Below, one piece after another: positions 17,285 through 54,474 of a stretch of 64,000 bases of DNA (position 1 is its first letter; each line of letters begins with the position of its first letter). The notes under the pieces were generated by a model. It was given only the letters and a program-made list of their open reading frames with translations. It made no database searches and was not told the origin of the DNA. A program made the translations under genes and the position numbers. The DNA comes from Maribacter algicola (GTDB taxonomy: Bacteria > Bacteroidota > Bacteroidia > Flavobacteriales > Flavobacteriaceae), in NCBI RefSeq assembly GCF_003933245.1, contig NZ_QUSX01000002.1, positions 496,001 to 560,000 on the forward strand, written 5' to 3'.

Positions 17285-17374
17285 CAATTTGAAGCATATC
17301 CCGATGGATTATCGGAATTTTTGCATATCCTACGCCAAAGAATTTCGATAATTCGAAAAATTCATTTTGGGAAT

Positions 17375-17403
17375 TGGTAAACTTCGAGTATTGCGTAACT
17401 TTA
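17375..17403 (+). promoter_or_regulatory. promoter of the first Asp-box propeller gene
   Basis: TTG (17375-17377), 18 nt, then TAACTTTA (17396-17403). Transcription would start near 17410, so the GTG/TTG codons upstream cannot be used and the ATG at 17434 is the start. Confidence 0.6.
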
Positions 17404-17433
17404 GGCAAAACCAACATTCAAATACCATTTGTT

Positions 17434-20427
17434 ATGAAAGGGCTATCGCTATCCACTATTTTCCTTTTTTTAGGAGTTACCGTTTTTTCCCAAAACTTTG
17501 ACGCTTTCCAATACCGCACGATCGGGCCCAATAGGGGCGGAAGGGTCACCACCGTGACGGGAACGCCCATGCTTCCGGGTACATTTTATTTAGGTGCTTC
17601 CGGGGCCGGGGTCTGGAAAACCGAGGACTACGGAACTACATGGGATAATGTTTCGGACGGATTTTTTAAGACACCGTCCATAGGGGCTATTGAAGTGGCC
17701 CAGAACGACCCGAATATCGTCTATGTGGGTACGGGTTCGGATGGTATCCGAAGTAATATCATCAGCGGAAAAGGGGTCTATAAATCAATCGACGCTGGAA
17801 AAACCTGGACCCACATCGGGTTGGAAAATGTCGGACAGATCGGTGCCGTTGAAATCGACCCTACCAACAGCAACATTGTATGGGTAGCTGCCATAGGAAA
17901 TGCCTTCAAACCCAATGAGGAACGCGGTATTTACAAAACTATGGATGGCGGAAATACTTGGGAAAGGGTACTTTTTATTTCCAATGAAACAGGTTTTGCC
18001 GATCTGGAACTTTTACCTGGTAACCCCAACGTTGTCTATGCTGCCGCATGGAAGGCGCAAAGAACACCTTGGACGATTATTTCAGGTGGAGAAAATAAAG
18101 AAGGGGGTATCTACAAATCCTTCAACGGAGGTAAGGATTGGGTTAAATTGGAAGAAGGACTGCCAAAAGGCCTCATCGGAAAAATAGATTTGGCCGTTTC
18201 ACCTACCAACTCTAGTATTCTGTACGCGGTTATAGAGGCTCCGGGCAAGGAAGGTGGCGTCTATAAATCTGTAGACCAGGGAAAAACCTTTACCCAAACC
18301 TCCAGCAATGAAGGCTTGGTCAATAGGCCCTTTTATTATACCAATATCGAATTGGACCCAACCAACCCAGATATTGTTTACTCCAATGCAAATCCGCTCT
18401 TAAAATCGGTTGATGGCGGTAAGACCTGGAAACGGATGAGCGTTCCGCATGGCGATAACCATGATATTTGGTTAAATCCCAATAATCCGGATTTATTGAT
18501 CCAATGTAATGACGGAGGGGCCAATATTTCCCACAATGGGGGTAAAACATGGTCAACACAGTTCAATCAGCCAACGGCGGAAATCTATCAAGTGGCTGTG
18601 GACGACCAATATCCCTACTGGGTCTATGGGGCACAGCAGGACAACACCACCATAGCTATCCCGAGTACGGCGCCGACAGCCAGTGGGCCACAAGGTACAC
18701 AGATCATGATGGATGTTGGCGGCTGTGAAACAGGTCCCGCCATCCCAAAACCTGGTGACCCTAATGTGGTGTACAACAATTGTAAAGGTCGGTTTAGCGT
18801 ATTTAATAAGATAACTGGAACGGATCGGGAGTATTCCATTGGAGCCTCCAATATTTACGGACATAATCCAAAAGACTTAAAATACAGGTTCCAAAGGGTA
18901 GCACCCATTCATGTCTCTCCCCATGATCCGGATGTAGTCTATATGGGTTCTCAATATCTTCATAAAACGAGGAACAACGGTCAAATTTGGCAAACCATTT
19001 CCCCAGATTTAACGGCCAATGAAGATGATAAGCAAGTAATTTCAGGAAGTCCCATTACCCGTGATATTACAGGGGAAGAATATTATAGCACGCTTTATTC
19101 CATAAGGGAATCAAAAATCAAACCTGGTCTTATTTGGACGGGGTCAAATGACGGTGTTATTTCCGTCACTCAAGATGGCGGACAGACCTGGGCCAATGTC
19201 ACTCCCAAAAAAATGCCAAAAGGGGGTAGGGTGGAATCTGTAGAGCCATCGCAATTTGACGAAGCCAAAGCATATATTACGGTAGATCGACATCTATTGG
19301 GCGATACTACGCCATACATATATAAAACCGATGATTATGGTAAAAATTGGACCTTGATCACTACGGAAAGTAACGGAATACCATCGGATTATACCGCAAG
19401 GGTCCTTAGGGAGGATCCAAAGATGTCAGGATTACTGTATGCTGGAACCGAATTTGGTATGTTCATTTCCTTCAACGACGGCGAGACCTGGAAGGCGTTT
19501 CAGCAGAACTTACCTGTTACCCCTATAACGGATATTATTATAAATCGAGGCGATTTGGTCTTAAGTACCATGGGACGAGGATTCTGGATTTTGGACAATA
19601 TAAGTGCCCTCAGGGATTCAAAAATTACCACTTTAGCCGATGTGCCAGTGTTATTCAAACCCGAAGATACCTATAGGTATAGAACACCTAGGGGATCTGG
19701 GGATTTTCCAAACTATCCTTCGACAAGTGTAAGCATTGATTATTATTTTCCCAAGGAACTTAAAAGTGGGGTTTCTTTGGAGATTTTCAATTCCGAAGGG
19801 AAATCGGTTTCTAAGATCGTTAGCGATTCCACCCAATTAAAATCGACCAAGGAACAGGTGGAGGATATGGGGCTCAGTATGGTATTTGAGTATGTGGATA
19901 CCAAGTTGGAAACCAAAAAGGGCATCAACCGTTTTGAGTGGGACTTACGTGAAAAAGGCGCGTGGAATAGCAACAAGAGCCGTAGCTACAAAAACGGTCC
20001 TATGGTTCCACCTGGTTCCTATACGGCTAAATTGACCGTTGATGGGAAAACCTTGGAACAGCCATTTCAAATTCTGATGGATCCAAGATTAGAACAAGAA
20101 GGTGTTTCCCTGGAAACCATTAAGGAACAATTGGCACTTCAAAATAAAGTAAATCAGCTCTTATCTGAGGCAAGAAAATTCCAGTCGGACCTGGAGAAGA
20201 AAATAAAGGAAACCAAGAACAAGGAAGAAAAGGAAAAATTGGAAAATGTACTGAAAACAATCAAAAATGATGAAGGGGCCTATCCCCAGCAAATGATGGT
20301 CGCACAAATTTCCTATCTCTCCAATATCATCGGCGGGTCCGATAAGAAACCCGGTAACGAGGAAATAGAACGATTTAAGGAATTACAGGAGCAATTCGAT
20401 CAGACCAAACGGCAAGTCGATTTATGA
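17434..20427 (+). CDS. exported Asp-box (BNR/sortilin-like) beta-propeller protein
   Basis: About 997 residues from the ATG at 17434. A signal peptide ends at TVFSQ. Many Asp-box repeats follow (S/T-x-D-x-G-x-T-W, such as SIDAGKTWTH, TMDGGNTWER, SVDGGKTWKR), forming two seven-bladed-type propellers as in VPS10/sortilin and sialidase-like proteins. The C-terminal 250 residues contain a beta-sandwich (FEWDLREKGAW, PPGSYTAKLTVDG) and a coiled-coil tail. Automatic pipelines call these glycosyl hydrolases, but no catalytic residues are evident, so a binding or chaperone role is equally possible. A paralogue lies at 50746. The class V aminotransferase follows 31 nt downstream. Confidence 0.8.
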   Translation: MKGLSLSTIFLFLGVTVFSQNFDAFQYRTIGPNRGGRVTTVTGTPMLPGTFYLGASGAGVWKTEDYGTTWDNVSDGFFKTPSIGAIEVAQNDPNIVYVGTGSDGIRSNIISGKGVYKSIDAGKTWTHIGLENVGQIGAVEIDPTNSNIVWVAAIGNAFKPNEERGIYKTMDGGNTWERVLFISNETGFADLELLPGNPNVVYAAAWKAQRTPWTIISGGENKEGGIYKSFNGGKDWVKLEEGLPKGLIGKIDLAVSPTNSSILYAVIEAPGKEGGVYKSVDQGKTFTQTSSNEGLVNRPFYYTNIELDPTNPDIVYSNANPLLKSVDGGKTWKRMSVPHGDNHDIWLNPNNPDLLIQCNDGGANISHNGGKTWSTQFNQPTAEIYQVAVDDQYPYWVYGAQQDNTTIAIPSTAPTASGPQGTQIMMDVGGCETGPAIPKPGDPNVVYNNCKGRFSVFNKITGTDREYSIGASNIYGHNPKDLKYRFQRVAPIHVSPHDPDVVYMGSQYLHKTRNNGQIWQTISPDLTANEDDKQVISGSPITRDITGEEYYSTLYSIRESKIKPGLIWTGSNDGVISVTQDGGQTWANVTPKKMPKGGRVESVEPSQFDEAKAYITVDRHLLGDTTPYIYKTDDYGKNWTLITTESNGIPSDYTARVLREDPKMSGLLYAGTEFGMFISFNDGETWKAFQQNLPVTPITDIIINRGDLVLSTMGRGFWILDNISALRDSKITTLADVPVLFKPEDTYRYRTPRGSGDFPNYPSTSVSIDYYFPKELKSGVSLEIFNSEGKSVSKIVSDSTQLKSTKEQVEDMGLSMVFEYVDTKLETKKGINRFEWDLREKGAWNSNKSRSYKNGPMVPPGSYTAKLTVDGKTLEQPFQILMDPRLEQEGVSLETIKEQLALQNKVNQLLSEARKFQSDLEKKIKETKNKEEKEKLENVLKTIKNDEGAYPQQMMVAQISYLSNIIGGSDKKPGNEEIERFKELQEQFDQTKRQVDL

Positions 20428-39932: not shown

Positions 39933-40044
39933 GTGGTGGTTTTTAGGTTGAGGCGCGGGCTGGGTGCGCCTTATGGCTTTGGAAGATACAGATAATTCCT
40001 GTTGTATGGATTGCAGGGTTAAAGAATGTCATATGCCGATGGAT

Positions 40045-40111
40045 ACAGGCCGCTTGGGGTGTCATTGCGAGGCACCTCGACTTACTTCGACTACGCTCAC
40101 TACAGGCCGCT
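40045..40111. repeat. repeat fragment upstream of the M24 peptidase gene
   Basis: The motif ACAGGCCGCT occurs at 40045-40054 and 40102-40111. Between them is TCATTGCGAGGCACCTCGACT and CGACTACGCTCAC, text that resembles the repeat at 42795-42810 (CGACTGCGCTC). It looks like the remains of an interspersed repeat rather than a gene. Confidence 0.5.
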
Positions 40112-40140
40112 CGGTATAGGTTGCTCAGGGAGACAGGTGA

Positions 40141-41142
40141 TTAGACCTTTACAATCATTTTTCCTTTTTTCTTGCCGGCCATCATGTCCAAAAAGGCCTG
40201 AGGTGTATTTTCAAATCCTTCTACGATCGTTTCCCGGTAGGTCAACTTTCCCTCCTTCAACCAAGTTGATAATTGCTCCATGGCCTCCGGAAATTTATCG
40301 GAGTAATTGGAAACGATAAAGCCCTGCATCAAGGCACTGTTTTTGATCAAAAAAGGCTGTACGCTCACCCCGGTCGGCGTTTCGGTATTGTTATAGACCG
40401 CTATCGCCCCACAATTGATCGTCCTGGCGAACTTGTTGATGCTGAATAATACGGCATCGGAAATTTCCCCGCCTACGTTGTCAAAATAGATATCTACACC
40501 GTTGGGAGCGACCTCCTTAATGGCAGCTTTCATATCGTCAGTAGTTTTATAATTGATGCCTCGGTCAAAACCGAATTCGGAGGTCAACAATTCCACCTTT
40601 TCGTCAGAACCGGCAATCCCAATGACCGTAAGGCCCAAGATTTTACCGATTTGACCCACAACACTACCTACGGCACCTGCGGCCCCGGAAACGATCAAGG
40701 TTTCTCCTTTTTTCGGTTTGCCGATTTCATGCAAACCCAAATAGGCTGTTAATCCCGTCATCCCCACAATACCCAAATAAGCACTCAAGAGCGCTTTATC
40801 TGGGTCCACTTTTTGCAGGTTTTCTCCGTTGGAAACCTGTACCGTTTTCCAATCCAATCGGTCCCTTACAAAATCACCTTTTGTAAAATTCTCATTTTTA
40901 GAATCAATAACCTCTGCGATGATGCCCGAATTGATGGGTTTGCCCACCTCGAATGGTGGAACGTAGGATTTGGCATCGCTCATCCGTCCCCGTAAATAAG
41001 GGTCCACGGAAATGTACTTGGTTTCCAAAAGCACTTCCCCGTCCTTTATCATGAGGTTGTTTTCGGATTCCGTAAGTTCAAAATTGTCCAGGGTAGGGGC
41101 CCCAACCGGACGTTTTTTTAAGTGTATCGTTTGTATCATCAT
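40141..41142 (-). CDS. zinc-independent NADP-dependent MDR oxidoreductase (CurA/PTGR-like)
   Basis: A 333-residue medium-chain reductase. YISVDPYLRGRMSD is the conserved N-terminal block of the leukotriene B4 dehydrogenase and curcumin reductase branch, and GETLIVSGAAGAVGSVVGQIGKI carries the NADPH motif. The structural zinc Cys residues of alcohol dehydrogenases are absent. Enzymes of this type reduce alpha,beta-unsaturated ketones and aldehydes. The start is Met-Met, either of which may be used. A -7-like element lies upstream at 41176-41183. Confidence 0.85.
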   Translation of the reverse strand: MMIQTIHLKKRPVGAPTLDNFELTESENNLMIKDGEVLLETKYISVDPYLRGRMSDAKSYVPPFEVGKPINSGIIAEVIDSKNENFTKGDFVRDRLDWKTVQVSNGENLQKVDPDKALLSAYLGIVGMTGLTAYLGLHEIGKPKKGETLIVSGAAGAVGSVVGQIGKILGLTVIGIAGSDEKVELLTSEFGFDRGINYKTTDDMKAAIKEVAPNGVDIYFDNVGGEISDAVLFSINKFARTINCGAIAVYNNTETPTGVSVQPFLIKNSALMQGFIVSNYSDKFPEAMEQLSTWLKEGKLTYRETIVEGFENTPQAFLDMMAGKKKGKMIVKV

Positions 41143-41175
41143 GTTATTTTAAGTTCCTAATGTAATTTCTTCCTT

Positions 41176-41183
41176 TAAAGATA
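41176..41183 (-). promoter_or_regulatory. -7-like element ahead of the MDR oxidoreductase
   Basis: TATCTTTA on the minus strand, followed by AAGGA, the same TATCTTTAAAGGA text seen at 27671. It lies 34 nt from the first ATG. Confidence 0.5.
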
Positions 41184-41282
41184 CGCGGTTTGTCGTGTCT
41201 GTAGTATGAAAATTAGGGGCAACCGTCCTGATTACCCCTTACTTTCGTCACTATTTTTTACAGACTAACGGTATCATTTTCC

Positions 41283-42680
41283 TTATGCTTCACTAATCAT
41301 AATAGACTTCGCATTTACGAATTCCTTCATTCCGAATCCTCCATGTTCGCGTCCGTAACCCGAATTTTTAACACCTCCAAATGGCATGTTGGGTTCAGCC
41401 AGGCCAAAGGAGTTGATAAAGACCATGCCGGTATCAAAGTATTTACTTGCCATTTCCACGGCGGTGTCCACATCTTTGGAGAAAATGCCACCTCCGAGTC
41501 CGAATCGGCTATCGTTGGCAATGCGCATGGCATCCTCGTTATCTTTCGCCTTTATCAATGAGGCTACCGGGCCGAACAACTCATCGTCATACGCCGGTTG
41601 TCCTTCGGTAACGTGGGCCAAAACCGTGGCTGGATAATAATAGCCCTCCCCATCGGGCAGTTTCCCACCGCATAGGATTTCGGCGCCGTTCGCTACGCTC
41701 TTTTGTACCTGCTCGTGCAATTTTTCCCGTAAGTCCTTCCTTGCCATCGGGCCTAAATCCGTTTCCGAATCGGTGGGGTCGCCCAACTTCAGTGCCTTCA
41801 TGCCTTTTACGAATTTTTCCCGAAACTCGTCATAGACCGCTTCCGTCGCAATAAAGCGTTTGGCGGCAATACAGGTTTCGCCATTGTTATAGATACGTCC
41901 TTGGATGCATTTTTCCACAGCCAGATCGATATCGGCATCGTCCAAAATAAGATAGGCATCGTTACTACCCAGTTCCAAAACCATTTTCTTCAGTTCGCCA
42001 CCGGCTTTTTTCCCGATTTTCTTTCCGGCACCCGGACTCCCCGTTAAGGTCACACCTCGCACCAATTCGTGCTCTATGATGGTGTCCGATTGATCGTGGG
42101 AAATCACCAACACACTGAACAGTCCTTCGGGTAATCCCGCCGTATCGAATATGGATTTCAGGAGCTTGGCAGTTCCGGTCACATTTTCGGCATGTTTCAG
42201 TAACACACTGTTCCCCGCCATCAAATTGGCGATGGTATAGCGAATGACCTGATAGGCTGGATAGTTCCAAGGTTGAATCCCATAAATAACGCCCAAAGGC
42301 GCGTAGGTGATGATACCTCTGCCTCCATCGGAAATTTCGCGTTCCTCACTTTTGAGTGCCTCCGGTGCATTCTTGGCGGAAAAGCTACAGATGGCACTGC
42401 ATAGGTCCACTTCCTGTTCGCTTTGCGTCAGGAGTTTCCCCATTTCGGAGGTCATCATGTCCGCCAGTTCCTTTTTATAGTTCTGTAGTTCTTCCCCAAT
42501 GGCGGAAATGATTTTGCCCCGTTCCTCCACGGATTTGAACCGCCATTTTTTAAAGGCTTCGTGGGATTTTTGAATGGTGTCGGCCACCTGTGCATCCGTC
42601 ATCAAGGTATGCGTAGTGAGCGGCTTCCCGTTTGCGGGATTGATCGTTTTAAATGTTTTATCTGTTATTGTCGTTGCCAT
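41283..42680 (-). CDS. NAD(P)-dependent aldehyde dehydrogenase, succinate-semialdehyde type
   Basis: A 465-residue aldehyde dehydrogenase. The catalytic Cys is in NNGETCIAAKRF and the general-base Glu in VLELGSNDAYL; the Rossmann stretch GVTLTGSPGAGKKIG binds the cofactor. YAPLGVIYGIQPWNYP and FGPVASLI are typical. The closest well-known type is succinate-semialdehyde dehydrogenase (Sad/GabD), but this cannot be decided from sequence alone. It is flanked by other minus-strand oxidoreductases, with gaps that hold a promoter and an inverted repeat, so separate transcription is possible. Confidence 0.88.
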   Translation of the reverse strand: MATTITDKTFKTINPANGKPLTTHTLMTDAQVADTIQKSHEAFKKWRFKSVEERGKIISAIGEELQNYKKELADMMTSEMGKLLTQSEQEVDLCSAICSFSAKNAPEALKSEEREISDGGRGIITYAPLGVIYGIQPWNYPAYQVIRYTIANLMAGNSVLLKHAENVTGTAKLLKSIFDTAGLPEGLFSVLVISHDQSDTIIEHELVRGVTLTGSPGAGKKIGKKAGGELKKMVLELGSNDAYLILDDADIDLAVEKCIQGRIYNNGETCIAAKRFIATEAVYDEFREKFVKGMKALKLGDPTDSETDLGPMARKDLREKLHEQVQKSVANGAEILCGGKLPDGEGYYYPATVLAHVTEGQPAYDDELFGPVASLIKAKDNEDAMRIANDSRFGLGGGIFSKDVDTAVEMASKYFDTGMVFINSFGLAEPNMPFGGVKNSGYGREHGGFGMKEFVNAKSIMISEA

Positions 42681-42740
42681 TACTTTCTGTTTTTTTTAAG
42701 TGAATTGTATATCCGTAAACCGTCATAAACGAATGTTTCC

Positions 42741-42810
42741 TCGATCGCAGTCGAGAGGTCATTAAACCTAAAACCTTTAAAATGAGGTCTCGCATCTCGA
42801 CTGCGCTCGA
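42741..42810. repeat. REP-like inverted repeat
   Basis: TCGATCGCAGTCGAGA (42741-42756) faces TCTCGACTGCGCTCGA (42795-42810), complementary except at one position, with a 38-nt loop. It lies between the SDR and aldehyde dehydrogenase genes, where it could also act as a terminator. Confidence 0.65.
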
Positions 42811-42874
42811 TGTGACAGCTCGACCTGACATTCAAGTTGTAATTATGAAGAATCCCGGACATTCATTTAGTGAA

Positions 42875-43615
42875 TTACTGTTGTTCGCTGGGTACCAGGT
42901 ACACATCGTTGATGTTTACACGCTCCGGTTGGGAGAGGGCGTAGTAAATGGCATCTGCAATATCCTCGGCTTCCAAGGTTTCCATTTTTTGCATTTCCTT
43001 CATTTTCTCCATAATATCTTCATCGGTAATGGTATCCGTCAAATTCGTAGCGACCGCACCGGGCTCAATGGAGGTGACGTTGATGCCATATTTAGGCGCG
43101 AGTTCTTGGCGCAGCCCTTCGGAAAACATCTTTACTGCGGCCTTTGTGGCGCAATAGACCGCTCCGCCCGGAAAATATCGGTGTGCCGCCATGGACGATA
43201 TGTTGATGATATGCCCGTCTTTATTGGCCTTTAACTCAGGTAGTACCGCGGCCACGCCGTTGAGTACGCCCTTAATGTTCACGTCCACCATTTTTTCCCA
43301 TTCATCCGTCTTCAGTTTTTCTACAAAGGAGAGGGGCATCAGACCGGCATTGTTGATCAGGGCGTTTACCGTTCCAAATGTCAATTTCGCTTTGGAAACC
43401 GCATTTTCAAAGTCCTTCATTTTGGTGACATCCCCGGCCACGACCAAGGCTTCCCCACCTTTGGCTTCAATGGCCTTTTTTAAATCGTTAAGTTCATCTT
43501 CACTACGGGCCATAAGGACCACTTTGGCGCCGTGTTCCGCCAATTTATGGGCGGCGGCTTTTCCGATGCCGCTTGAGGCTCCGGTTACGAGTATTACCTT
43601 GTTTTCTAAATTCAT
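42875..43615 (-). CDS. SDR-family NAD(P)-dependent alcohol dehydrogenase
   Basis: About 246 residues from the ATG at 43615; the open frame runs 60 codons further upstream but that part is not protein-like. The motifs of classical short-chain dehydrogenases are all present: TGASSGIG for the cofactor, NNAG, a catalytic Ser in NISSMAAH, and YCATKAAV with Tyr and Lys. The block SIEPGAVATNLTD follows. The substrate is not known. It is a minus-strand gene at the edge of the AT-rich island. Confidence 0.85.
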   Translation of the reverse strand: MNLENKVILVTGASSGIGKAAAHKLAEHGAKVVLMARSEDELNDLKKAIEAKGGEALVVAGDVTKMKDFENAVSKAKLTFGTVNALINNAGLMPLSFVEKLKTDEWEKMVDVNIKGVLNGVAAVLPELKANKDGHIINISSMAAHRYFPGGAVYCATKAAVKMFSEGLRQELAPKYGINVTSIEPGAVATNLTDTITDEDIMEKMKEMQKMETLEAEDIADAIYYALSQPERVNINDVYLVPSEQQ

Positions 43616-43917
43616 CGTGTTCTTTTTTTGTTTCCCTTCAATATAGGAGCTAGGGACGGATTTCCTTGATCCTAACGAATAGCGGATTGACGGGTTCGCT
43701 ATGGAGCGCGCTTTATGGTTTTTAGGGTTAAGGGGGATGGGTTGGGCAAAGGGGATCTTGGGTGTTATAATGAACTTAAAATGTGCCTGGAACACATTAC
43801 AATAGGATTAATGGGGGTGTAAATGTATGTTAAATGAATCACATTTAAAATTCTTACATAATTATGGCATTAATGTTTAGATTTGTTTGATATCAAATTT
43901 AAGAGTAAAACAAATTA
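43616..43917. other. left border of the AT-rich island
   Basis: The composition changes from normal to AT-rich around 43790-43800. No integrase, tRNA or direct repeat marks the border. The last 40 bases hold the promoter and palindrome of the operon that follows. Confidence 0.4.
43878..43897 (+). promoter_or_regulatory. promoter with overlapping 12-bp palindrome
   Basis: TAGATTTG (43878-43885) fits TAnnTTTG. Directly after it lies the perfect palindrome TTTGATATCAAA (43886-43897), covering the expected transcription start. That position is typical for a repressor operator. The ATG is 21 nt downstream at 43918. Confidence 0.55.
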
Positions 43918-46566
43918 ATGAAATTCACCTACAATCCAAGGATTATCAGGCATTTAGGATATGAGCTGATTACTTCTAATGAAGTTGCAATAACTGAGCT
44001 TATCAAAAATTCTTATGATGCAAACTCTTCAAAAGTTTCACTGCAGTTTTTGACCTCTTATGATAAACTCGATACCACAAGATTACTAAATAAAATCCCT
44101 AATAAATTAAATGAACGCTTAGCTAAAATTAATCCTGAAAGTCTTGTATTAGTTGAAGATATCGGAGTTGGAATGACCAAAGATGTTTTAATCAAAGGAT
44201 TTTTTGAAGTCGGATCAACCTTAAAAAAAGACCAAAAGAATAATGAGGATCAAGGTGCTAACATTATTCTTGGTGACAAAGGAATTGGTAGGTTAGCTTC
44301 TCAGAAAATTGCCCCAAAACTCATCGTGGAAACTTCAGCGGAGAATAGCAATCAAATTGTTTATGTTGAAATTGATTGGGAGAAATTTATATCAAGTAAA
44401 GATTTTGATGCACCTGAAGAAGAAATCGATTTAGGGACAACTATTTCTAGTGGATACACAAGACTATGGCTTCTTGGTACTAAGGAACAACCAATTGTAA
44501 TTCAACAATATTTTGAAGAAAGAGAAAACTACGAATACGATGTTTTCGGAAATATTACTAAAAGTTTAGGAAAGTATCTTCAAATAAAGGATGAGTTACA
44601 AACTGCTCTTGGATTTTTGTATTCGCCGTTTGAGGAAAAGAAATCTGTAGTTGATATTGAGTTGTCAACCGACGGAAAGACCATAATGTTGGATTTTAAT
44701 TATCAGGCATTAAAGGTTGCTGAGACAATTCATGAATTTGATAGTGAAATTATCTATGATGATGATCATAAACCAATAGATTTAAAAATTAATTTGAGTT
44801 TACAACTAAGGCCTTGGTTTATTGAAAGAATTCATCACCGTGAATTAGGGTCTGTACTCTATCAAGACTGGAAAAGACCATCTACGGAATATAAAAAGCT
44901 CTTAGATAAATATGAAGACCGTTATAGTCAGAATTTAAAGAATACACTCTTACTTACTCAAATTTTCCCATCATGGAACAAAAAAAGAAAGGGAGCTTTA
45001 TCTGAAAATTTTGTTGATGCCATTTTGAAAATAGCACCAATAAAATGTAAAATTTATACATTTAAAAGAGATAATACTCTCATGAGCATTGCAAGACAAT
45101 CTGCTGTGGATAACGGATATGTCGAAAATACTGTTAGAACAAATTATGATATTCGTCCATTTTTATCTGCTCATAATGGAATCAAACTATATCGGAATTC
45201 ATACCGAGTAGGAACGATTGGAAATAGGGATAATGATTGGCTAGAACTACAACAAAAAAGAACTTCTGGGCAACAGTTTTATAGATTTGAATTAGGAAAT
45301 GTAATTGGGTTCATTCAGATTAATGATAAAAAACAGAAGTATATATACGAAACCAGTTCTAGAGAACATCTCACTCAAAATTTATATGTCGATTCACTTC
45401 AAGTAACTTTAACTGAACTTCTCGAAATATTTTCACCAAACTATACCAAAACAGCAGTAGAATTAACTAAAAACTTTCTTGATCAGGAAGGTTGGTTGCC
45501 TAAAAATAATGAAAAAGAAATAGAGCAGGAAATCGACAAATCGAAAGAGGTACTAAAAGCAGCAAGATTGAATTTAACCGCTATTCAGCAGGCAATTACT
45601 GCAATTAAGGACAAAATTGAATTAGACACGGAAGAAAAAATCAATTCTGTTAAAAAAGTATTTCGAAATCTAGAACCAATTGCTTTAAACTTTGAGGAAA
45701 ATCTTGATGATACTGAAAGATCATTGAAAAGTGCAAACCAACTATTGGAAATTGCTAAACAAGAACAAGTAAGGGTAAAAACAGAAGCTTACAATAATTA
45801 TAAACTTATGGCCAATGGGTTGGTTACTGAAATAATTACTCATGAGCTCCACTCTCTTCTTAGCAGCTCTGAGGAGGAGGGTGTCGTTTATGACAGGCAC
45901 TTTAAAGTAATAGAAAAGTATTTCCTGGATACTGAGCTATATGAGCTTAATAAGTCGCATTTTCTGCCAATTAAAAAGAAATTTGAACATCTATTTAAAA
46001 AAATGGGTGATTTAGATAAGTTTTATTCTTTTTTAGATAAAACCTTTATTACAAATGACGGAAGTAGAATATTGATTCCTACGGAAGTAAAAGGTGAACT
46101 AAAGCTTATTGTTGAAAGATTCAAATTTCGATTGAATAGGCATAATGTGCGAGTAGAACTTTCGTCGCTTAATAATGTTTGGGAGGTGCCAAAAGGAGCT
46201 CTACTGCATGTTTTTTACAACTTAATTGACAACTCGATTTATTGGATTCGACAACGACAAAGGATGGAGAGATTAGATGCTAGGTACAAAAGAGAAGGTA
46301 CAGATTTAATAGATATCAAAACAACTTCGTCAACTACAATACACTTTAGCGATACTGGCATTGGAATAGATGATAAACTTCAACACACTTTGTTTAATGA
46401 ACTTGTTTCCGGTAAAGAAAATGGTAGAGGTATGGGTTTGTATATCGTGAGACAATTCCTAAAATCATTTGGAGGTAATATCGAATTATTACCAAAGAGA
46501 AATATTTATGGAAATAGATATATTTTTGAAATAAGCATAAATCAGCTTACAAACGAGAATGAGTAG
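43918..46566 (+). CDS. double-GHKL ATPase / histidine-kinase-like protein
   Basis: An 882-residue protein with two ATPase modules. The N-terminal one is of HSP90/MORC type: ELIKNSYDA (27-35) as N-box, DIGVGM (81-86) and GDKGIGRLAS (119-128). A middle coiled coil (about 510-620) leads to ITHELHSLL with His642, like a histidine-kinase H-box. A second, kinase-type HATPase follows: NLIDN (768-772), FSDTGIGI (810-817) and GRGMGLYIV (836-844). MORC-like GHKL ATPases are known partners in some restriction systems. No membrane segment is present. The next gene overlaps by 8 nt and carries a receiver-like domain. Confidence 0.75.
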   Translation: MKFTYNPRIIRHLGYELITSNEVAITELIKNSYDANSSKVSLQFLTSYDKLDTTRLLNKIPNKLNERLAKINPESLVLVEDIGVGMTKDVLIKGFFEVGSTLKKDQKNNEDQGANIILGDKGIGRLASQKIAPKLIVETSAENSNQIVYVEIDWEKFISSKDFDAPEEEIDLGTTISSGYTRLWLLGTKEQPIVIQQYFEERENYEYDVFGNITKSLGKYLQIKDELQTALGFLYSPFEEKKSVVDIELSTDGKTIMLDFNYQALKVAETIHEFDSEIIYDDDHKPIDLKINLSLQLRPWFIERIHHRELGSVLYQDWKRPSTEYKKLLDKYEDRYSQNLKNTLLLTQIFPSWNKKRKGALSENFVDAILKIAPIKCKIYTFKRDNTLMSIARQSAVDNGYVENTVRTNYDIRPFLSAHNGIKLYRNSYRVGTIGNRDNDWLELQQKRTSGQQFYRFELGNVIGFIQINDKKQKYIYETSSREHLTQNLYVDSLQVTLTELLEIFSPNYTKTAVELTKNFLDQEGWLPKNNEKEIEQEIDKSKEVLKAARLNLTAIQQAITAIKDKIELDTEEKINSVKKVFRNLEPIALNFEENLDDTERSLKSANQLLEIAKQEQVRVKTEAYNNYKLMANGLVTEIITHELHSLLSSSEEEGVVYDRHFKVIEKYFLDTELYELNKSHFLPIKKKFEHLFKKMGDLDKFYSFLDKTFITNDGSRILIPTEVKGELKLIVERFKFRLNRHNVRVELSSLNNVWEVPKGALLHVFYNLIDNSIYWIRQRQRMERLDARYKREGTDLIDIKTTSSTTIHFSDTGIGIDDKLQHTLFNELVSGKENGRGMGLYIVRQFLKSFGGNIELLPKRNIYGNRYIFEISINQLTNENE

Positions 46567-48838
46567 GTTAGCCGAACTTATAAAGTCTCTTAGAGCATTC
46601 ACGATTCTCATTGTCGAGAATGAATTTGAGTATGTTACAAACCCCAATGAAATACTTGGGAAAAGCTGTTTTCTGAAACCGGAGACTATTACTGAAATTG
46701 TCAGCTCTGTTAATTCGCAAGGGCACGAAGACTTGGCAGAACACCTGAATAAATTCTTTTATGCTTGGAATAAAATTGAAAACCACGAGTTTCAATTATT
46801 GGAAACTATGGGTGTAGAATATCTGGATAGGTACTTGGAAAAAATAAATCAGCGCATATTAAAGCCTGAATTTTTAGAAATATTCAATAACATTATTGAA
46901 CAAGATACAAATCATTCTTTTAAATCTATTTTTCTCAAACATGGTATTTTCATTGATGAGACTGTTCCTAAGTATAGAAAAATTTTAGCTGAAATTCACT
47001 CGATTCCAAATTGTAAAATTTTAATATACAAGCAAAATCCAGCCGAGGAGTTTTGGCCGACTTTTAAAAATGAAATTGAACAATCCGTTTTAGATACTAA
47101 AAGCAATTTTTGTCTTTCAATTATTGATAAAAGTCTTGGAGGAGGCGGAAATGAAGGTAAAGAACTAATTCAAAGATTAGTAGAGGAGCATAAAAACGAT
47201 GATAGGTTTAAACATATTTGCTGTCTTTATACATCCTTAGCAGCTGAAAACAAGTTGGAATGTTTTGATGATTATTTTGTTCAAGAAGTTTCAAAAAGCA
47301 AAGAAAATGAAACTGATAATATAGCATACGTACTAGCACAATCTGCATATGCTGAAGTTTTTAATTCTTTAAAAGTAAAGACAATCAAAAGTGCAGAGGA
47401 TACTCTTCAGATTGTTCTTAAAAACCAGAAAAATATAAAATATATTGTGGATAAATCTCAGGATGAGGGTATTCCTGCCTATGACACAATAAAAAATTGG
47501 TATGGCTTGTCTGTCCAAAATTCTTTCGATTTAAAAGAATTAAAGGATTTTCGATTTATTGCTAGTCTTGCCTCATTTTTCAAAAAGGAATTTTTAGAAA
47601 ATCATCCCTCGTTATCCGAGGTGAGTGAAGAGCTCAGGCAGTTAAACACTTATGAGTTATTTGATAATAATATCAACAAAAAATATTTACCAATTGCTCC
47701 AGGGGACATTTGGGAGTCAGGTGGGAATTATTATATCCTTATAGGGCAGCTCTGTGATTTACTCTTGCGAAAGAAGAATAATAATAGAAATGCCAGGATT
47801 GGTGAACTATTTAAGCTAGAATTTGGTAGAAATGACTCACAAAAATATAAATATGATGTCATACTTAATTCAGGCAAAAAAAATATTCATATCGATAATT
47901 TTTATGACGAATTAAATGACAAGTATGAAACACTTAAAATTGATATTTCTACACCAAATATTTTTTTTGCAGACCTAGAAGTTCTAGATCTTTGCATGTT
48001 TAATTCGAGTGGTAAGTGTGAAATTGATATTAAACAAAAGTTGACAGAGGACATTAAATTAGTCCTATCCTCTAACAAAGACGATTATTATAATAAACTA
48101 AAAAATAAATACAGCAATATTGGAATATCAAAAATCAGACAAATAGCGAGTGCTTTAGAATTGAACAATCCTCTTGATTTTTCTATTATAAATTTTCAAG
48201 TAAACCAGGGTGTTATATCGCATGGTATCCGCAGAGTTTGTCGATTGAAAGGAAGATACTATGATTCCTTATATAATAATTACCTAAATCATAGAGGAAG
48301 AATTGATTTAAATCTCATAGACAATGTTGAGGAGGAAGTAACATCAATAAAATTAACTTTTTCTCTCATAAATGATCCCGCATCAGAGTTAACAGTTGAT
48401 AATTTTAATTTGTGGAAATCTAAAAGAGAAGTCTATTTAAATTTGGAAGAATTAAAAACTTCATTTCCGTTGTATTCGGAATTGTTTTCCAAATGCAAAG
48501 TTGAAAAACTTGAATCTTCAAATACTACCCAATTCATTCTTACGAAAGAATCTGATAGTGAGTATACGTTGATGTTTAAGTATCATTTTGGAGAAAATGA
48601 CTACGTTCAAAAAAAGGAGTTTAGCTTTAAAGATTTGTTTAAAGAAAGTAAACCCATAGGGAATGACAAGTTTATGGTTAAAGGAAAACAAGAAAAAGAA
48701 TCTTTTTTGAACGAAGAAGGTCATGCCACACGGAAAATTACAATTGAAGAGCTCAAACTTGGTATCATAGTTTTTGATAAAGGAGCAGTTATTAGCCTAT
48801 CAAATGGTTTATTAATTAAAGAAAAGTATGAAGAATAA
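46559..48838 (+). CDS. receiver-like domain protein, partner of the double-GHKL protein
   Basis: A 759-residue cytoplasmic protein. A receiver-like segment spans about 150-270: NCKILIYKQ as first strand, FCLSIIDKSLGGG with Asp190 in the phospho-acceptor place, ICCLYTSLA with Thr/Ser 225-226, and YFVQEVSK with Lys246. The N-terminal 150 and the C-terminal 480 residues match nothing I recognise. The C-terminal part is rich in Lys, Asn and Glu and looks like a large effector or DNA-recognition domain. It overlaps the genes on both sides (8 and 11 nt), so it is translated together with the kinase-like protein and the methyltransferase. Confidence 0.65.
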   Translation: MSRLAELIKSLRAFTILIVENEFEYVTNPNEILGKSCFLKPETITEIVSSVNSQGHEDLAEHLNKFFYAWNKIENHEFQLLETMGVEYLDRYLEKINQRILKPEFLEIFNNIIEQDTNHSFKSIFLKHGIFIDETVPKYRKILAEIHSIPNCKILIYKQNPAEEFWPTFKNEIEQSVLDTKSNFCLSIIDKSLGGGGNEGKELIQRLVEEHKNDDRFKHICCLYTSLAAENKLECFDDYFVQEVSKSKENETDNIAYVLAQSAYAEVFNSLKVKTIKSAEDTLQIVLKNQKNIKYIVDKSQDEGIPAYDTIKNWYGLSVQNSFDLKELKDFRFIASLASFFKKEFLENHPSLSEVSEELRQLNTYELFDNNINKKYLPIAPGDIWESGGNYYILIGQLCDLLLRKKNNNRNARIGELFKLEFGRNDSQKYKYDVILNSGKKNIHIDNFYDELNDKYETLKIDISTPNIFFADLEVLDLCMFNSSGKCEIDIKQKLTEDIKLVLSSNKDDYYNKLKNKYSNIGISKIRQIASALELNNPLDFSIINFQVNQGVISHGIRRVCRLKGRYYDSLYNNYLNHRGRIDLNLIDNVEEEVTSIKLTFSLINDPASELTVDNFNLWKSKREVYLNLEELKTSFPLYSELFSKCKVEKLESSNTTQFILTKESDSEYTLMFKYHFGENDYVQKKEFSFKDLFKESKPIGNDKFMVKGKQEKESFLNEEGHATRKITIEELKLGIIVFDKGAVISLSNGLLIKEKYEE

Positions 48839-49997
48839 AACATTTGAAATATTATCGCTTTTTTCTGGTGGAGGATTTCTTGACTTAGGATTTATTAATC
48901 AGGGTTTTGAAATCTCAGAAGCAGTCGAAATTAACCCTTATTTTATTGAAGCTTATAATTATGGACTAGAGAGTTATTTTAATAATTCCAATAATAAATA
49001 TTTAAGACAAGGACTAGTTAAGCATAACAAAATCAATAAGCCTATCGATGCGTCATGTAGGAAAGAACAAAAAAGGTTAGAAAAAAGCCATGCCAATGTG
49101 ACGGGTATAATAGGGGGGCCACCTTGCCAAGATTATTCTGTAGGGGGAAATAATGGAGGGATAGAAGGAGAAAGAGGTAAATTGATAAACAGCTATTTGA
49201 GTATAGTCAAAAAAATAAAACCTGATTTTTTATTTTTTGAAAATGTTGAGGGTTTGTATAAAACTATAAAACATAGAAAAGCATTCGACGAGTTCGTTGT
49301 AAATATAGAGAAGAATGGCTATGTGGTTTGGCATGACATATTTAACGTGTTGGAATATGGTTATCCACAAGATCGCCCAAGGATTGCGTTAGTAGCCTTC
49401 AAAAAGAAAATAGTCAAATCCTTGGTTAAGGCCGGCCAGGTAATGGAAAAGGATAATTTTAAATTAAAACATAAACAAACGGATAATTTGGTTTTTCGTT
49501 GGCCAAAACCAAAATATAAAAACCCGAAAAGTTTCGATTGGCCAAAGAAATGGAAGTTTGGAAATGATAAATCCATTTACGAATTGAATGGGCATGAGGA
49601 GCTCAGTGTAAATTATATTTTTAAAGATTTAGACGATACTTTCCCAAATCAAACTGAACATTTTAATCCCAAATCAAAACGTTTTAAGGATGTAGAGGAA
49701 GGAGATACCAATCGCAAATCATTTAAGAGACTACATAGATTTAGATATAGCCCAACTGTCGCCTATGGTAATAATGAGGTTCATTTACACCCTACTCAAG
49801 CTAGGCGGTTGACTGTAAGAGAAGGCTTGAGATTACAAACTGTACCAGATGAATACATTCTACCACCAGAAATGCCTTTAACACCAAAATTCAAATTAAT
49901 TAGTAACGGTGTACCAACTGCAAGTGCAGAATTAATAGCTAAAGAAATACGTCGCACTTTAATTAACTTCCTAAGCCTAAATAATGGCAATTTATAA
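48828..49997 (+). CDS. DNA (cytosine-5-)-methyltransferase
   Basis: A 389-residue C5 methyltransferase with all core motifs in order: I LSLFSGGGFLDLGF (9-22), IV GGPPCQDYS with the catalytic Cys100, VI ENV (138-140), VIII QDRPRIAL (Q181, R183, R185), IX RRLTVREGLRLQTVPDEY and X NGVPTASAELIAKEI. The region between VIII and IX (about 190-325) is the target-recognition domain. It would methylate C5 of cytosine at a specific site. It overlaps the previous gene by 11 nt and the HNH gene by 14 nt. Confidence 0.9.
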   Translation: MKNKTFEILSLFSGGGFLDLGFINQGFEISEAVEINPYFIEAYNYGLESYFNNSNNKYLRQGLVKHNKINKPIDASCRKEQKRLEKSHANVTGIIGGPPCQDYSVGGNNGGIEGERGKLINSYLSIVKKIKPDFLFFENVEGLYKTIKHRKAFDEFVVNIEKNGYVVWHDIFNVLEYGYPQDRPRIALVAFKKKIVKSLVKAGQVMEKDNFKLKHKQTDNLVFRWPKPKYKNPKSFDWPKKWKFGNDKSIYELNGHEELSVNYIFKDLDDTFPNQTEHFNPKSKRFKDVEEGDTNRKSFKRLHRFRYSPTVAYGNNEVHLHPTQARRLTVREGLRLQTVPDEYILPPEMPLTPKFKLISNGVPTASAELIAKEIRRTLINFLSLNNGNL

Positions 49998-50538
49998 TAC
50001 TTCTTCAGATTCGGCAAATACCGCAATAAGAGCTTTTTTGACAAAAGTTGGGGAGTACTATTGGGGAAAAAGTTTTAATACAGGTTCAGGGAAGTCAAAA
50101 AAAATATTTCAACAAATTAAAGAAAAGGTGTTTGAGAATAAATGTGCCTACTGTGGAAATAAAGCATTCAAACTTCAAATAGAACATTTAATCATGTTCA
50201 ACAGAACACAATATGGTTTACACCATCCAGGAAATATAGTGCCAGCATGTCAATCTTGTAATAAACGAAGAAGAGATGATTCGAGTAATTATTTAAATTG
50301 GGAAGAACATTTAGAACAAATTTGCAGAGAAAATAATGATTTAAATTCATTTTTCGAAAGAAAGAAAAAAATTCAATATCATATGCAAAAAGGAGAATTT
50401 AAGTATCCTGAACTGAATGAAGCTGAAAAACATGCAATTCGCGTAATTGCGAATTCTTTATACGAAAATATCAAGACAGAAAGTGATAAGGCCCTTAAAA
50501 TGTATCAAGAATTAGATAGTGCTTTCGTAAAACGTTAG
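49984..50538 (+). CDS. HNH endonuclease
   Basis: A 184-residue nuclease. The HNH core is CAYCGNK (Cys54, Cys57), IEHLIMF (Glu67, His68), NIVPACQSC (Asn84, Cys89, Cys92) with the zinc-binding Cys pairs of the McrA-like subtype. The first 50 residues are basic and the C-terminal half is helical. It overlaps the methyltransferase by 14 nt, so it is probably the cutting partner of a type II-like pair. A methyltransferase with an HNH nuclease would form a simple restriction set by itself; the two upstream genes are additional. Confidence 0.85.
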   Translation: MAIYNTSSDSANTAIRAFLTKVGEYYWGKSFNTGSGKSKKIFQQIKEKVFENKCAYCGNKAFKLQIEHLIMFNRTQYGLHHPGNIVPACQSCNKRRRDDSSNYLNWEEHLEQICRENNDLNSFFERKKKIQYHMQKGEFKYPELNEAEKHAIRVIANSLYENIKTESDKALKMYQELDSAFVKR

Positions 50539-50546
50539 ATTTATAA

Positions 50547-50696
50547 CTATCCAAGTGCTTCAAGCCTAAGATAATTTTGATAATAGCTTAAAATTGTTTT
50601 AAAAGTATTCGTAAAATCTACTTCTTCAACTCGGCTAAAACAATAGATGCATGCTAGTACATCCACCATAGAAAAGTAGTATCTTTTGAAGGTATA
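50547..50696 (-). pseudogene. protein-like remnant at the right island border
   Basis: On the minus strand a stretch reads YYFSMVDVLACIYCFSRVEE then VDFTNTFKTILSYYQNYL and a stop. It looks protein-like (helical, regular) but has no credible start, since the upstream part merges into sequence antisense to the next gene. It may be the 3' end of a gene cut by the island. I could not name the family. Confidence 0.3.
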
Positions 50697-50745
50697 GCGC
50701 CAATGCCTTATACACCTAAGAAAAACCATTTTATAAACTACCACC

Positions 50746-53700
50746 ATGAAACCAACCACCCTAAAAACCTTCTTTTTCACCCTTTGCCTTTTGGCCGCTT
50801 TTGCGTCCCAAGCACAAGTAGACCCATCCTATTATCAAGATCTGGAATACAGGATGATCGGGCCCTTCCGTGGCGGGAGGACCGTAGGTGCGGTGGGCGT
50901 CCCTTCCCAACCCAATGTCTTCTTTATTGGGGTAAACAATGGCGGGGTATGGAAAACACATGATTATGGCCGTACCTGGAACCCCATTTTTGATGACGCC
51001 CCTACAGGTTCCGTGGGGGATTTGGCGGTTTCGCCCTCGGACCCCAATATCATGTATGTCGGTACCGGCGAAGGCCTGCACCGGCCGGACCTTGCCGTGG
51101 GGGATGGCATCTATAAATCCACCAATGGCGGTGAAAGTTGGGAGTATATCGGTTTGGAAGATGTACAACAGGTGAGTCGGGTCATTGTACACCCCACCAA
51201 TCCGGATATCGTCTATGTGGCCGGTTTGGGACATCCGTACGGGGCCAACGAAATGCGGGGCATTTTTAAGTCGGTAGACGGCGGAAAAACATGGAAAAAG
51301 ACCTTATATCTAAATTCAACCACCGGTTCAACGCAAATTGAAATGGACCCTAACGATGCAAATATTTTATTTGCGGCCATGTGGGAACACCTGGAAGGCC
51401 CTTGGGAGAACGCCAAATTTTCCGGTCCTAACAGCGGACTCTACAAATCCACGGATGGCGGGGAAACCTGGCGAAAAATAGAAAAAGGGTTACCCGGAGC
51501 GGAAGAAGGTCTGGGCAGGGTAGGGGTGGCGCTATCGGCCAGCAATTCCAAACGCCTCTATGCCACGGTGGATGCCCAAGAAAAGGGCGGGGTGTATACC
51601 AGTGCCGATGCCGGTGAAAGCTGGAGCCTGGTCACCACGGAAAACCGATTGTGGGGCCGGGGGAGCGACTTCGCCGAAATAAAGGTGCATCCCAAGGATG
51701 AAAATACAGTGTTTGTAGGCAATATTGCCTCCTACAAATCCGTAGATGGCGGTAAAACGTGGACCTCCATCAAAGGTGCCCCGGGCGGGGACGATTACCA
51801 TAGGATATGGATCAATCCCCTGCATCCGGAAATCATGCTGTTTGCCGCCGATCAAGGTGCGGTAATCACGGTCAATGGGGGAGACACGTGGAGTTCTTGG
51901 TACAACCAGCCCACGTCACAATTGTACCATGTGACGACGGACAACCAATTTCCGTATTGGGTGTACGGAGGCCAACAGGAAAGTGGCGCCATTGGCATTG
52001 CCAGTAGGAGCAATGGGGGACAAATCTCGTTCCGGGAATTTGTAGGCGTAGGTGCCGATGAATATGCCTATGTGGCCCCGGACCCTTTGGATAATAACAT
52101 CGTGTATGGGGGTCGGGTGATTCGATTCAATAAAAAAACGGGGCAATCGCAATATGTGGGTCCCGAAGTATTACGTTCCCGGGATTTCCGATACCTACGT
52201 ACGATGCCTTTATTGTTTCATCCGGCCGATGATAGCATGTTGTTATTCGGTACGAATGTGATTTGGAAAACCCATAACGGGGGACAGCATTGGGAACAGA
52301 TCAGTGGCGACCTCACCAGAGCCCAACCCGAAGTGCCCGCCAGCGTTGGGGATTACAAAACCGAGGCAATGGAAAACATGCCGCAGCGTGCCATCGTGTA
52401 TGCCATTGGCCCTTCGCCCTTGGATAAAGATATTATTTGGGCCGGTACGGACGACGGACTCATTCATATGACTCGGGACGGGGGCAACACCTGGACCGAC
52501 GTAACACCGACCTCGATTACTTCCTGGGATAAAATTTCACAGATCGATGCGGGGCATTTTGATGCGGGAACCGCTTATGTGGCCGTAAATGCGATTCGGA
52601 AGGACGATATGCAACCCCATATCTACAAGACCCACGACTTTGGGGAAACCTGGGAGGAGGTCGTTACGGGGATGAATCCCTCCGGACCGGTCAACGTGGT
52701 GCGGGAGGACCCGAAACAAAAAGGTTTGCTGTTTGCCGGAACGGAGCGTGAGGTCTATTTTTCGGCCGATGACGGGGCATCATGGCAATCGCTCCGAATG
52801 AACATGCCCGCATCTTCCATTCGGGATTTGGTGGTGCATGAAAACGATCTGGTCATTGGTACCCACGGTCGCTCCATTTGGATCTTGGACGATTTTAGTC
52901 CGCTGCGGGAATTGGCAAGTCTATCCGACCAAAACGCCTATTTATTTTCGCCCAGCGATGCCTATCGGGTTCGGTTCAATATGTTTAGCGACACGCCACT
53001 GCCTCCGGAAGAACCTACGGGACAGAATCCGCCGGATGGCGCCCTTATCGATTATTATTTGGGTGCCGATGCCCAAAAGGTGGAACTCAACATCTTGGAT
53101 TCGAAAGGGGAATTGGTCAACAGCTTTTCCAATGCCGATAGTGCGGAAGTGTTGGATACGACCCAAATGCAGCATCCCACGTATTGGATACGTCCGTTCA
53201 AAGGATTGTCCGGCGAGCCCGGCCACCACCGTTTTGTTTGGAATCTACGGTATAAAGAACCTCAGGGCGCCAATCGTGCCTTTGCCATAGCCGCGGTACA
53301 ATATGATACCCCCAGCGGACCCGAAGGGCCTTTTGTAGCGCCGGGAACGTATACCGTCCAACTGAAGGTGGATGGGGAGATGCTAGAAAAAAGCATCACC
53401 GTAAAACTGGACCCACGCTCCGAAATGAGCGAGGAAGCCTTGGGCCTTCAAACCGACCTGTCCCTGCAAACTTATACCGATTATGGGAAACTGCAGGGGA
53501 TTCGGGAAGCGATAGATGCCAGCTCGGCAAAGGGCAAAAAGAAGGAAAAGCTGCTGGCCTTTCGAGGCGAGAGAGCCCCTGAGGATGGCGATTTGATCTA
53601 TGGCAGTATCTATGCTACAGAACTGGAGGATGAAACGCTTGTCGGACTCCAATCCAAATTACTCTTTCTTTTGAACGTGCTACAGAAAACCGATGCCCGA

Positions 53701-53787
53701 CCCACGGTCGCCACGCAGGAAGCCGCAAGACAGTTACATACACGTGTAGGGGAGATGGTAGCCCTTTGGGAATCGAAGTACAAATAA
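50746..53787 (+). CDS. exported Asp-box beta-propeller protein, second paralogue
   Basis: A 1013-residue protein with a signal peptide (ends FASQAQ) and the same opening as its paralogue at 17434 (YRMIGPFRGGRT versus YRTIGPNRGGRV). Many Asp-box repeats follow, such as STNGGESWEY, SVDGGKTWKK, STDGGETWRK and THDFGETWEE, giving two propellers, then a beta-sandwich (FVWNLRYKEPQGA, VAPGTYTVQLKVDGE) and a helical tail. It is often annotated as a glycosyl hydrolase or VPS10-like, without proof. The GC-rich codon use contrasts with the AT-rich island just upstream. Single gene. Confidence 0.8.
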   Translation: MKPTTLKTFFFTLCLLAAFASQAQVDPSYYQDLEYRMIGPFRGGRTVGAVGVPSQPNVFFIGVNNGGVWKTHDYGRTWNPIFDDAPTGSVGDLAVSPSDPNIMYVGTGEGLHRPDLAVGDGIYKSTNGGESWEYIGLEDVQQVSRVIVHPTNPDIVYVAGLGHPYGANEMRGIFKSVDGGKTWKKTLYLNSTTGSTQIEMDPNDANILFAAMWEHLEGPWENAKFSGPNSGLYKSTDGGETWRKIEKGLPGAEEGLGRVGVALSASNSKRLYATVDAQEKGGVYTSADAGESWSLVTTENRLWGRGSDFAEIKVHPKDENTVFVGNIASYKSVDGGKTWTSIKGAPGGDDYHRIWINPLHPEIMLFAADQGAVITVNGGDTWSSWYNQPTSQLYHVTTDNQFPYWVYGGQQESGAIGIASRSNGGQISFREFVGVGADEYAYVAPDPLDNNIVYGGRVIRFNKKTGQSQYVGPEVLRSRDFRYLRTMPLLFHPADDSMLLFGTNVIWKTHNGGQHWEQISGDLTRAQPEVPASVGDYKTEAMENMPQRAIVYAIGPSPLDKDIIWAGTDDGLIHMTRDGGNTWTDVTPTSITSWDKISQIDAGHFDAGTAYVAVNAIRKDDMQPHIYKTHDFGETWEEVVTGMNPSGPVNVVREDPKQKGLLFAGTEREVYFSADDGASWQSLRMNMPASSIRDLVVHENDLVIGTHGRSIWILDDFSPLRELASLSDQNAYLFSPSDAYRVRFNMFSDTPLPPEEPTGQNPPDGALIDYYLGADAQKVELNILDSKGELVNSFSNADSAEVLDTTQMQHPTYWIRPFKGLSGEPGHHRFVWNLRYKEPQGANRAFAIAAVQYDTPSGPEGPFVAPGTYTVQLKVDGEMLEKSITVKLDPRSEMSEEALGLQTDLSLQTYTDYGKLQGIREAIDASSAKGKKKEKLLAFRGERAPEDGDLIYGSIYATELEDETLVGLQSKLLFLLNVLQKTDARPTVATQEAARQLHTRVGEMVALWESKYK

Positions 53788-53874
53788 GTCGGCAAGGAAG
53801 CCGTTAAACGTTAAAAATCATAAAAATCCTTGGCTTGATTTGGTGTTTTTTTACTTTGGCGGAAACCTTCAAAT

Positions 53875-54474
53875 GTGCTAGCGAAAAGACGACAATTACC
53901 CCAAAAACCTACGAACGATACCGAACGGTTTATTTACTGTTTGGAAGCGGTCGATGCTATTGAAACGGACACGGTTACGGAAGTACAAAAAAATCTCGAG
54001 CAACTGGCCATACAGTATGGCGTGGCGAGTATCTATCAAACCTGTGATACCATTGAAGGGCTGGAAGATAGTCTCAATGCCCTCGTCATGGACGACCACC
54101 ATTTTAAGGATTATGAAATCATCTATCTGGTGATGACAGGGGAGGCCAATAGTGTTTGTTTAAATGGCTACTACTATTCCTTACAGGAAATCGCGGAAGT
54201 GTTCGAGGGACGGCTACGTGGGAAAATCTTGCATTTTTCCAATGCAAAAGTGCTCGACCTGGACGAGGAGGAAGCCCAGTATTTTTTGGATATCACCAAT
54301 GCCAAGGCGGTTTCCGGTTATGGCAATGCATTTGACGGAATAAGCAGCTCCCACCTAGATAAGGCCTTCTTTAACCTGTTTAAGGAGGAAGATGATATGT
54401 TCGAGGTGGTGGAAGAACTGCATCGCAGGCATTACGATGCCTGTAAGATCCTGGATTTTAGGTTGTATTATTAA
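53875..54474 (+). CDS. DUF6642-like protein, GTG start
   Basis: A 199-residue cytoplasmic protein, acidic, with RFIYCLEAVDAIETD near the N-terminus and YEIIYLVMTGEANSVCLNGYYYSL in the middle. It resembles a family of uncharacterised proteins in Bacteroidota (DUF6642). No in-frame ATG precedes the conserved part, so GTG at 53875 is the likely start; an overlapping out-of-frame ATG two bases earlier cannot be used. A -7-like TTTACTTTG lies about 20 nt upstream. It faces the Arg/Asp-rich gene across a terminator. Confidence 0.6.
   Translation: MLAKRRQLPQKPTNDTERFIYCLEAVDAIETDTVTEVQKNLEQLAIQYGVASIYQTCDTIEGLEDSLNALVMDDHHFKDYEIIYLVMTGEANSVCLNGYYYSLQEIAEVFEGRLRGKILHFSNAKVLDLDEEEAQYFLDITNAKAVSGYGNAFDGISSSHLDKAFFNLFKEEDDMFEVVEELHRRHYDACKILDFRLYY

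Follow-up and report, generated by a model that had tools for sequence, protein, structure and literature searches.

The window analysed here, a stretch of 64,000 nucleotides from Maribacter algicola (contig NZ_QUSX01000002.1, positions 496,001 to 560,000), carries a compact operon of four open reading frames (ORFs) on the + strand, which encode a sensor kinase (HK), a receiver protein (RR), a C5 cytosine DNA methyltransferase (MTase) and an HNH protein (Table 1). We assign this operon, with a probability of about 0.9, to the methylation-linked, 'two-component-like' paraMORC systems, of which it would form a branch in Bacteroidota. Its sequence and the structure models indicate that an ATPase clamp with a complete histidine-kinase core, a receiver that has Asp, Thr and Lys in place and a C5 methylase occur together in a fixed order. 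An earlier note, made from the DNA letters alone, could not say whether such an architecture had been described. The kind had been: according to the accessible part of the 2021 report, kinases with HATPase_c_3, DHp and HATPase_c domains and their receiver partners form HEF_HK (PF19191)/Response_reg_2 (PF19192) two-component-like pairs beside C5 methylases (Bellieny-Rabelo et al, 2021; PMC8011034), yet the window proteins match neither of the Pfam families made there. The window operon is a distant Bacteroidota branch of this known kind, set apart by its gene order, the greater length of its RR and the clade of its methylase.

Gene 1 encodes a fusion of a MORC/HSP90-like ATPase with a histidine kinase. 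Pfam places HATPase_c_3 at its N-terminus and HATPase_c at its C-terminus, and the structure model, a check that the earlier note had suggested, supports the second ATPase fold. The two GHKL modules and the histidine-kinase-like C-terminus that had been read from the sequence are both borne out, the tested ATP-site motifs of the two GHKL domains and the kinase motifs H, N, G1, F and G2 being intact in all 61 aligned relatives. The same relatives all keep H642, E643, H645 and S646, and 58 of them read H-E-L at the kinase His, where canonical kinases have H-E-F; His642 is aligned to the histidine of that canonical motif. Profile comparison with a set of eight canonical kinases, three of which were scanned and match HEF_HK, revealed homology over the whole length (probability 100, E 5.6e-44). 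The HEF_HK model itself has no match in the window HK at E<=1, and PF19191 is annotated in 0 of the 120 kinase relatives listed in precomputed Pfam data. The kinase also has relatives in Bacillota, at 35-39% identity.

Gene 2 folds, in its structure model, as a receiver with a long output region, in agreement with the receiver-like partner of the earlier reading; the predicted phospho-acceptor Asp and the Lys are invariant among the relatives (Table 1). A Foldseek search with the whole RR against the PDB gave no match at E<=0.001, and neither a receiver- nor a MazF-titled entry among the 50 matches listed; both appeared, and the receiver fold was found, on a second look. Against a viral structure library the model likewise had no match at E<=0.001, a phage response regulator ranking first (E 0.06) and a PemK/MazF protein fourth (E 0.25). 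Among solved structures searched by sequence, none matched the RR profile, and the canonical RR profile gave one weak receiver. The receiver part aligns at the active site with Response_reg_2 proteins, scoring 41.9 against at most 22.2 in 100 column shuffles; when four distant RR proteins were added, this score fell to 37.4 and that of the barrel rose slightly, from 25.5 to 26.6. The window RR has no Response_reg_2 match at E<=1, and this family is not among the best 25 of the 39 Pfam families matching the 45 RR relatives, the other 14 being single-member matches after E 0.13.

The output barrel, whose MazF-like fold is a lead, raises the question of a phosphorylation-gated toxin, in which the barrel would be an active MazF-type RNase that kills the cell on infection. 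We consider this highly unlikely. A MazF assignment finds no support in the sequence: RR has no Pfam PemK_toxin match, and in hhalign against one PemK protein 26 of 60 shuffles scored as high. In addition, the MazF loop, which carries the catalytic Arg, is missing, just 5-6 residues lying between the first two strands in 45/45 relatives. A candidate common motif at the barrel end was seen by eye only, in a part outside the reach of the profile alignment. The region that follows the barrel has a mean pairwise identity of 29-32%.

The C5 methyltransferase assignment made in the earlier note is upheld by Pfam (Table 1), and P99-C100 and the ENV motif are invariant in 8/8 aligned sequences. The MTase has relatives above the limit in four plasmid records, at 39-43% identity; in the three that were opened the annotation of the gene adjoining the methylase names a restriction enzyme of the Cfr10I/Bse634I type (3/3), the fourth, unannotated, lying outside the neighbour comparison. 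In a tree of 19 proteins, a split with 100/100 support sets the window-type and Cfr10I-partner methylases apart from those of eight canonical loci. The window MTase also shares with the Cfr10I-partner methylases a block before what we take to be motif IX. Cfr10I, Bse634I and BsrFI recognise RCCGGY, as stated in the accessible part of PMC2413257. Given the overall similarity and the shared block, RCCGGY is probably the target of the window MTase as well. The site is not depleted within the window (35 observed, 40.3 expected).

Which genes form the core of the system can be read from eight loci, the window included, whose flanking ORFs were covered in part by the scans. HK, RR and MTase follow one another in the same order in all seven contiguous loci: the window, L001 (Pedobacter), L002 (Chryseobacterium), L003 (Mucilaginibacter), L041, L042 and L044. 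In the eighth, a Chitinophagaceae metagenome-assembled genome, HK sits at a contig edge (L045), and a truncated RR with the MTase at the edge of a second contig (L004). An indirect sign of linkage between HK and RR comes from 31/45 RR relatives and 3/4 of the distant ones, whose longest contig is exactly as long as a listed HK contig. The nuclease genes are variable. Pfam supports the HNH assignment of gene 4, and its homologue stands at the same position in L044 (57.6% identical); the gene is thus present in 2/8 loci. L041 also carries an HNH protein, L003 an HNH_2 protein upstream on the opposite strand, and Vsr genes lie downstream of the triad in L003, L041 and L044. In L042, the triad is directly preceded by another C5 methylase, a Vsr and an endonuclease of the MvaI/BcnI type (L042:4996-7934), so that two methylase systems lie side by side. 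No operon-partner nuclease was recognised among the scanned flanking genes in L001, L002 and L004/L045, L004 having an Endonuclease_NS gene beyond the MTase on the opposite strand. Because the nuclease gene is variable or unrecognised across loci, the HK-RR-MTase triad is the conserved core and the nuclease is not part of it. The expectation that the gene order would be conserved elsewhere holds for the triad, but for the four genes together in only two of eight loci, and the 'restriction activity' of the earlier reading finds no support in the three of eight loci where no partner nuclease was recognised among the scanned flanking genes.

The same comparison bears on two rival explanations. 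The operon could be an ordinary Type II restriction-modification (R-M) system, in which the HNH protein would be the cognate nuclease of the methylase, the GHKL protein would use ATP to clamp or loop DNA, and RR would have a structural role, without phosphorelay. The HNH gene does overlap the methylase gene by 14 nt and keeps its place in L044, residues 71-151 in the N-terminal GHKL of HK are similar to the BbrUII/HgiDII restriction family (E 4.1e-13, far under the cut-off of that model), and looping by paraMORC proteins in R-M operons has been proposed in the accessible part of PMC2292703. This reading is nevertheless unlikely, given an HNH restricted to two of eight loci, the loci devoid of a recognised partner nuclease, and kinase and receiver catalytic residues that are invariant; moreover, the sole plasmid relative of the HNH protein, a Vibrio gene (31% identical), has no annotated methylase within 7 kb. 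No HNH relative was found in phage records. Alternatively, the methylase and Vsr mismatch repair could maintain methylated sites rather than defend the cell, a reading suggested by the Vsr genes after the triad in three loci and upstream of it in L042. It is hardly probable at all, since no Vsr adjoins the triad in the window, L001, L002 or L004/L045, occurrence is patchy, and site maintenance does not need a kinase-receiver pair.

We favour a methylation-licensed defence switch. In this hypothesis the methylase would label self DNA, probably at RCCGGY, and the kinase would be turned on when its ATPase clamp senses DNA that is unmarked or invading, or some other state of infection. Phosphate would pass from His642 of HK to Asp190 of RR and free the output region, that is, the MazF-fold barrel and the variable beta domain, which may act as effector on the invader or on the cell, with an HNH or Vsr nuclease sometimes serving as accessory. 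In this way the operon would protect against phages through restriction or abortive infection. Taken as a whole, this mechanism is given slightly less than an even chance. We hold as doubtful the bolder proposition that the phosphorelay replaces the restriction enzyme, with the Cfr10I-type methylase as self mark, the MORC-type clamp as reader of DNA or infection state and the receiver with its MazF-fold output as effector, the switch operating by His-Asp phosphotransfer and not by direct cleavage at an unmethylated site. A kinase-receiver pair that shares its operon with a methylase might instead be a two-component regulator of the methylase and its neighbours, phosphorylated RR altering operon transcription or binding the methylase; a regulatory role towards R-M systems is indeed suggested in the accessible part of PMC8011034. 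This appears quite unlikely: no DNA-binding fold is found among the 50 matches listed for the RR model, a list that does not probe every part of it, and the gene overlaps leave a short upstream region only, with promoter- and terminator-like sites close to the shuffle mean. If the defence switch is true, methylation status or infection would be read by a two-component phosphorelay, and MORC-type ATPases, which are chromatin regulators in animals and plants, would be linked to bacterial immunity. The three core genes have clear catalytic residues, which makes the proposal directly testable by point mutants.

The composition and occurrence of the operon suggest that it spreads laterally. As first noted, the operon is an AT-rich island whose successive genes share 8, 11 and 14 nt; its guanine-cytosine (GC) content is 31.6% (0.316) against 43.2% in the remaining window, where all 222 sampled stretches of the operon's length have at least 0.394. 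The kinase is present in 1/395 genomes of a phylum sample (E<=1e-40) and, at E<=1e-60, in 3/301 and 2/296 genomes of the families of two named relatives, 1/299 of the window's own family and 2/284 of a fourth; these family counts include the starting genomes, and the samples may overlap. Two congeneric genomes retain the dehydrogenase block left of the operon (83-90%, 76-78% and 78% identity), without the operon beside it and without a kinase match at E<=1e-60. On the right, the BNR protein has only ~40% relatives, in several copies, in the two congeners, which does not delimit an insertion site. The edges of the operon, searched for repeats, yielded imperfect pairs only. By tblastn the kinase had no match in plasmid records (E limit 1e-30) or phage records (E limit 1e-10), nor did its Bacillus relative as query in plasmid records; in viral contigs two stretches fitted a pattern, neither encoding a relative. 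No Rfam match was found across 40000-54000 at gathering scores. Rarity, GC content and synteny point to a laterally spread unit, and the rare, patchy occurrence together with the low GC is consistent with a mobile defence unit.

Table 1. Genes and protein features of the operon, in window coordinates.
Feature	Position	Strand	Description
Gene 1, HK	43918..46566	+	882-aa soluble paraMORC-type sensor kinase: GHKL-S5 clamp, coiled coil, DHp, CA
HK residues 1-520	43918..45477	+	MORC/HSP90-like GHKL ATPase and middle (S5-like) domain
HK His642	45841..45843	+	Predicted phosphorylation site, T-H-E-L-H-S; from conservation and alignment to canonical HEF-motif His
HK residues 716-882	46063..46563	+	Histidine-kinase catalytic (CA) domain
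Gene 2, RR	46559..48838	+	759-aa receiver protein
RR residues 1-250	46559..47308	+	Receiver fold; helical insertion (27-150) interrupts after strand 1
RR Asp190	47126..47128	+	Predicted phospho-acceptor; 45/45 relatives
RR Thr225	47231..47233	+	44/45 relatives, Ser in one
RR Lys246	47294..47296	+	45/45 relatives
RR residues 371-583	47669..48307	+	Output barrel, MazF-like fold (lead only)
RR residues 584-759	48308..48835	+	Beta-rich C-terminal region, variable
Gene 3, MTase	48828..49997	+	C5 cytosine DNA methyltransferase; PF00145 E 1.4e-52, full length
MTase residues 286-322	49683..49793	+	Block before (presumed) motif IX common to Cfr10I-partner methylases
Gene 4, HNH protein	49984..50538	+	Accessory; PF01844 E 7.1e-6, residues 54-96

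Several neighbouring genes deserve mention. The window holds two large Sortilin-Vps10/BNR-repeat proteins (50746-53787 and 17374-20427), the first of which has relatives in 4 and 6 copies in the two congeneric genomes, and a DUF6642 protein (53875-54474, E 6.9e-87) lies two genes downstream of the operon. After the Vsr genes of L003 and L041 stand ~560-aa proteins that are 48% identical to each other (L003:11839-13515 and L041:2057-3760); they have no Pfam (E<=0.01) or PADLOC (E<=0.001) match and are possibly a further partner. Divergent from the operon of L041 is an 825-aa protein (L041:11803-14277) with a PADLOC TmtA match (E 2.4e-117) and no Pfam match at E<=0.001. A DUF6602 gene is found near the window-type operon of L044 (L044:2116-2949) and adjoining the canonical Response_reg_2 operon of L033 (L033:6203-7030). 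Small proteins with N-termini very similar by eye lie near the operons of L002 (L002:11550-11963, no Pfam match at E<=0.001) and L044 (L044:1527-1934). In the phylum sample, Response_reg_2 is above cut-off in 8/395 genomes, which hold the eight canonical loci; nine sub-threshold matches (about positions 39-106) in open frames of ~250 aa, from eight genomes of one other family (L017-L025), are probably ordinary receiver proteins.

Set beside known systems, the operon combines familiar parts in its own manner. Like Cfr10I/Bse634I-type R-M systems it has a methylase related to the partner methylases of the plasmid records, but it has no Cfr10I-family endonuclease gene, and kinase and receiver stand there instead. 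Kinase-receiver signalling in phage defence is known from Detocs, a defensive two-component system which is not known to have a methylase or a MORC-type domain. MORC-type GHKL ATPases occur in R-M operons, and the accessible part of that work describes an N-terminal GHKL with an S5-like domain, encoded alongside C5 methylases, Vsr and HNH proteins (Iyer et al, 2008; PMC2292703); in comparison, the window operon has an additional complete histidine-kinase core and a receiver partner, and no helicase gene. VcSduA, a GHKL-gated Shedu nuclease called paraMORC3-like, offers a precedent for the defence switch: it protects against phage and requires its ATPase, a GHKL ATPase controlling the phage-defence effector; its effector is fused in one protein, and the accessible part of the paper describes no kinase core, receiver or methylase for it (PMC12137116). 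HATPase and REC are named in a figure legend on predicted, non-validated defence systems in the accessible part of PMC13092281. The closest likeness is with the HEF_HK/Response_reg_2 systems, which, in the accessible part of PMC8011034, have the same kinase architecture (their group 1), a receiver partner without other known domains and neighbouring C5 methylase, Vsr and HNH genes. Homology along the entire kinase, the receiver active-site alignment, the presence of the receiver Asp, Thr and Lys and of the kinase His, and linked HK and RR genes with a C5 methylase nearby are shared as well. A literature search, with most subscription papers outside its reach, found no title or abstract reporting experiments on these systems. 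The window type differs by the H-E-L motif, by an RR of 759 aa against about 525-575 aa, and by the order HK-RR-MTase against MTase-HK-RR in 8/8 canonical loci, an upstream methylase being frequent and not obligatory according to the accessible part of PMC8011034. The published Pfam models fail to reach this branch, whose methylases belong to another clade than those of the canonical branch.
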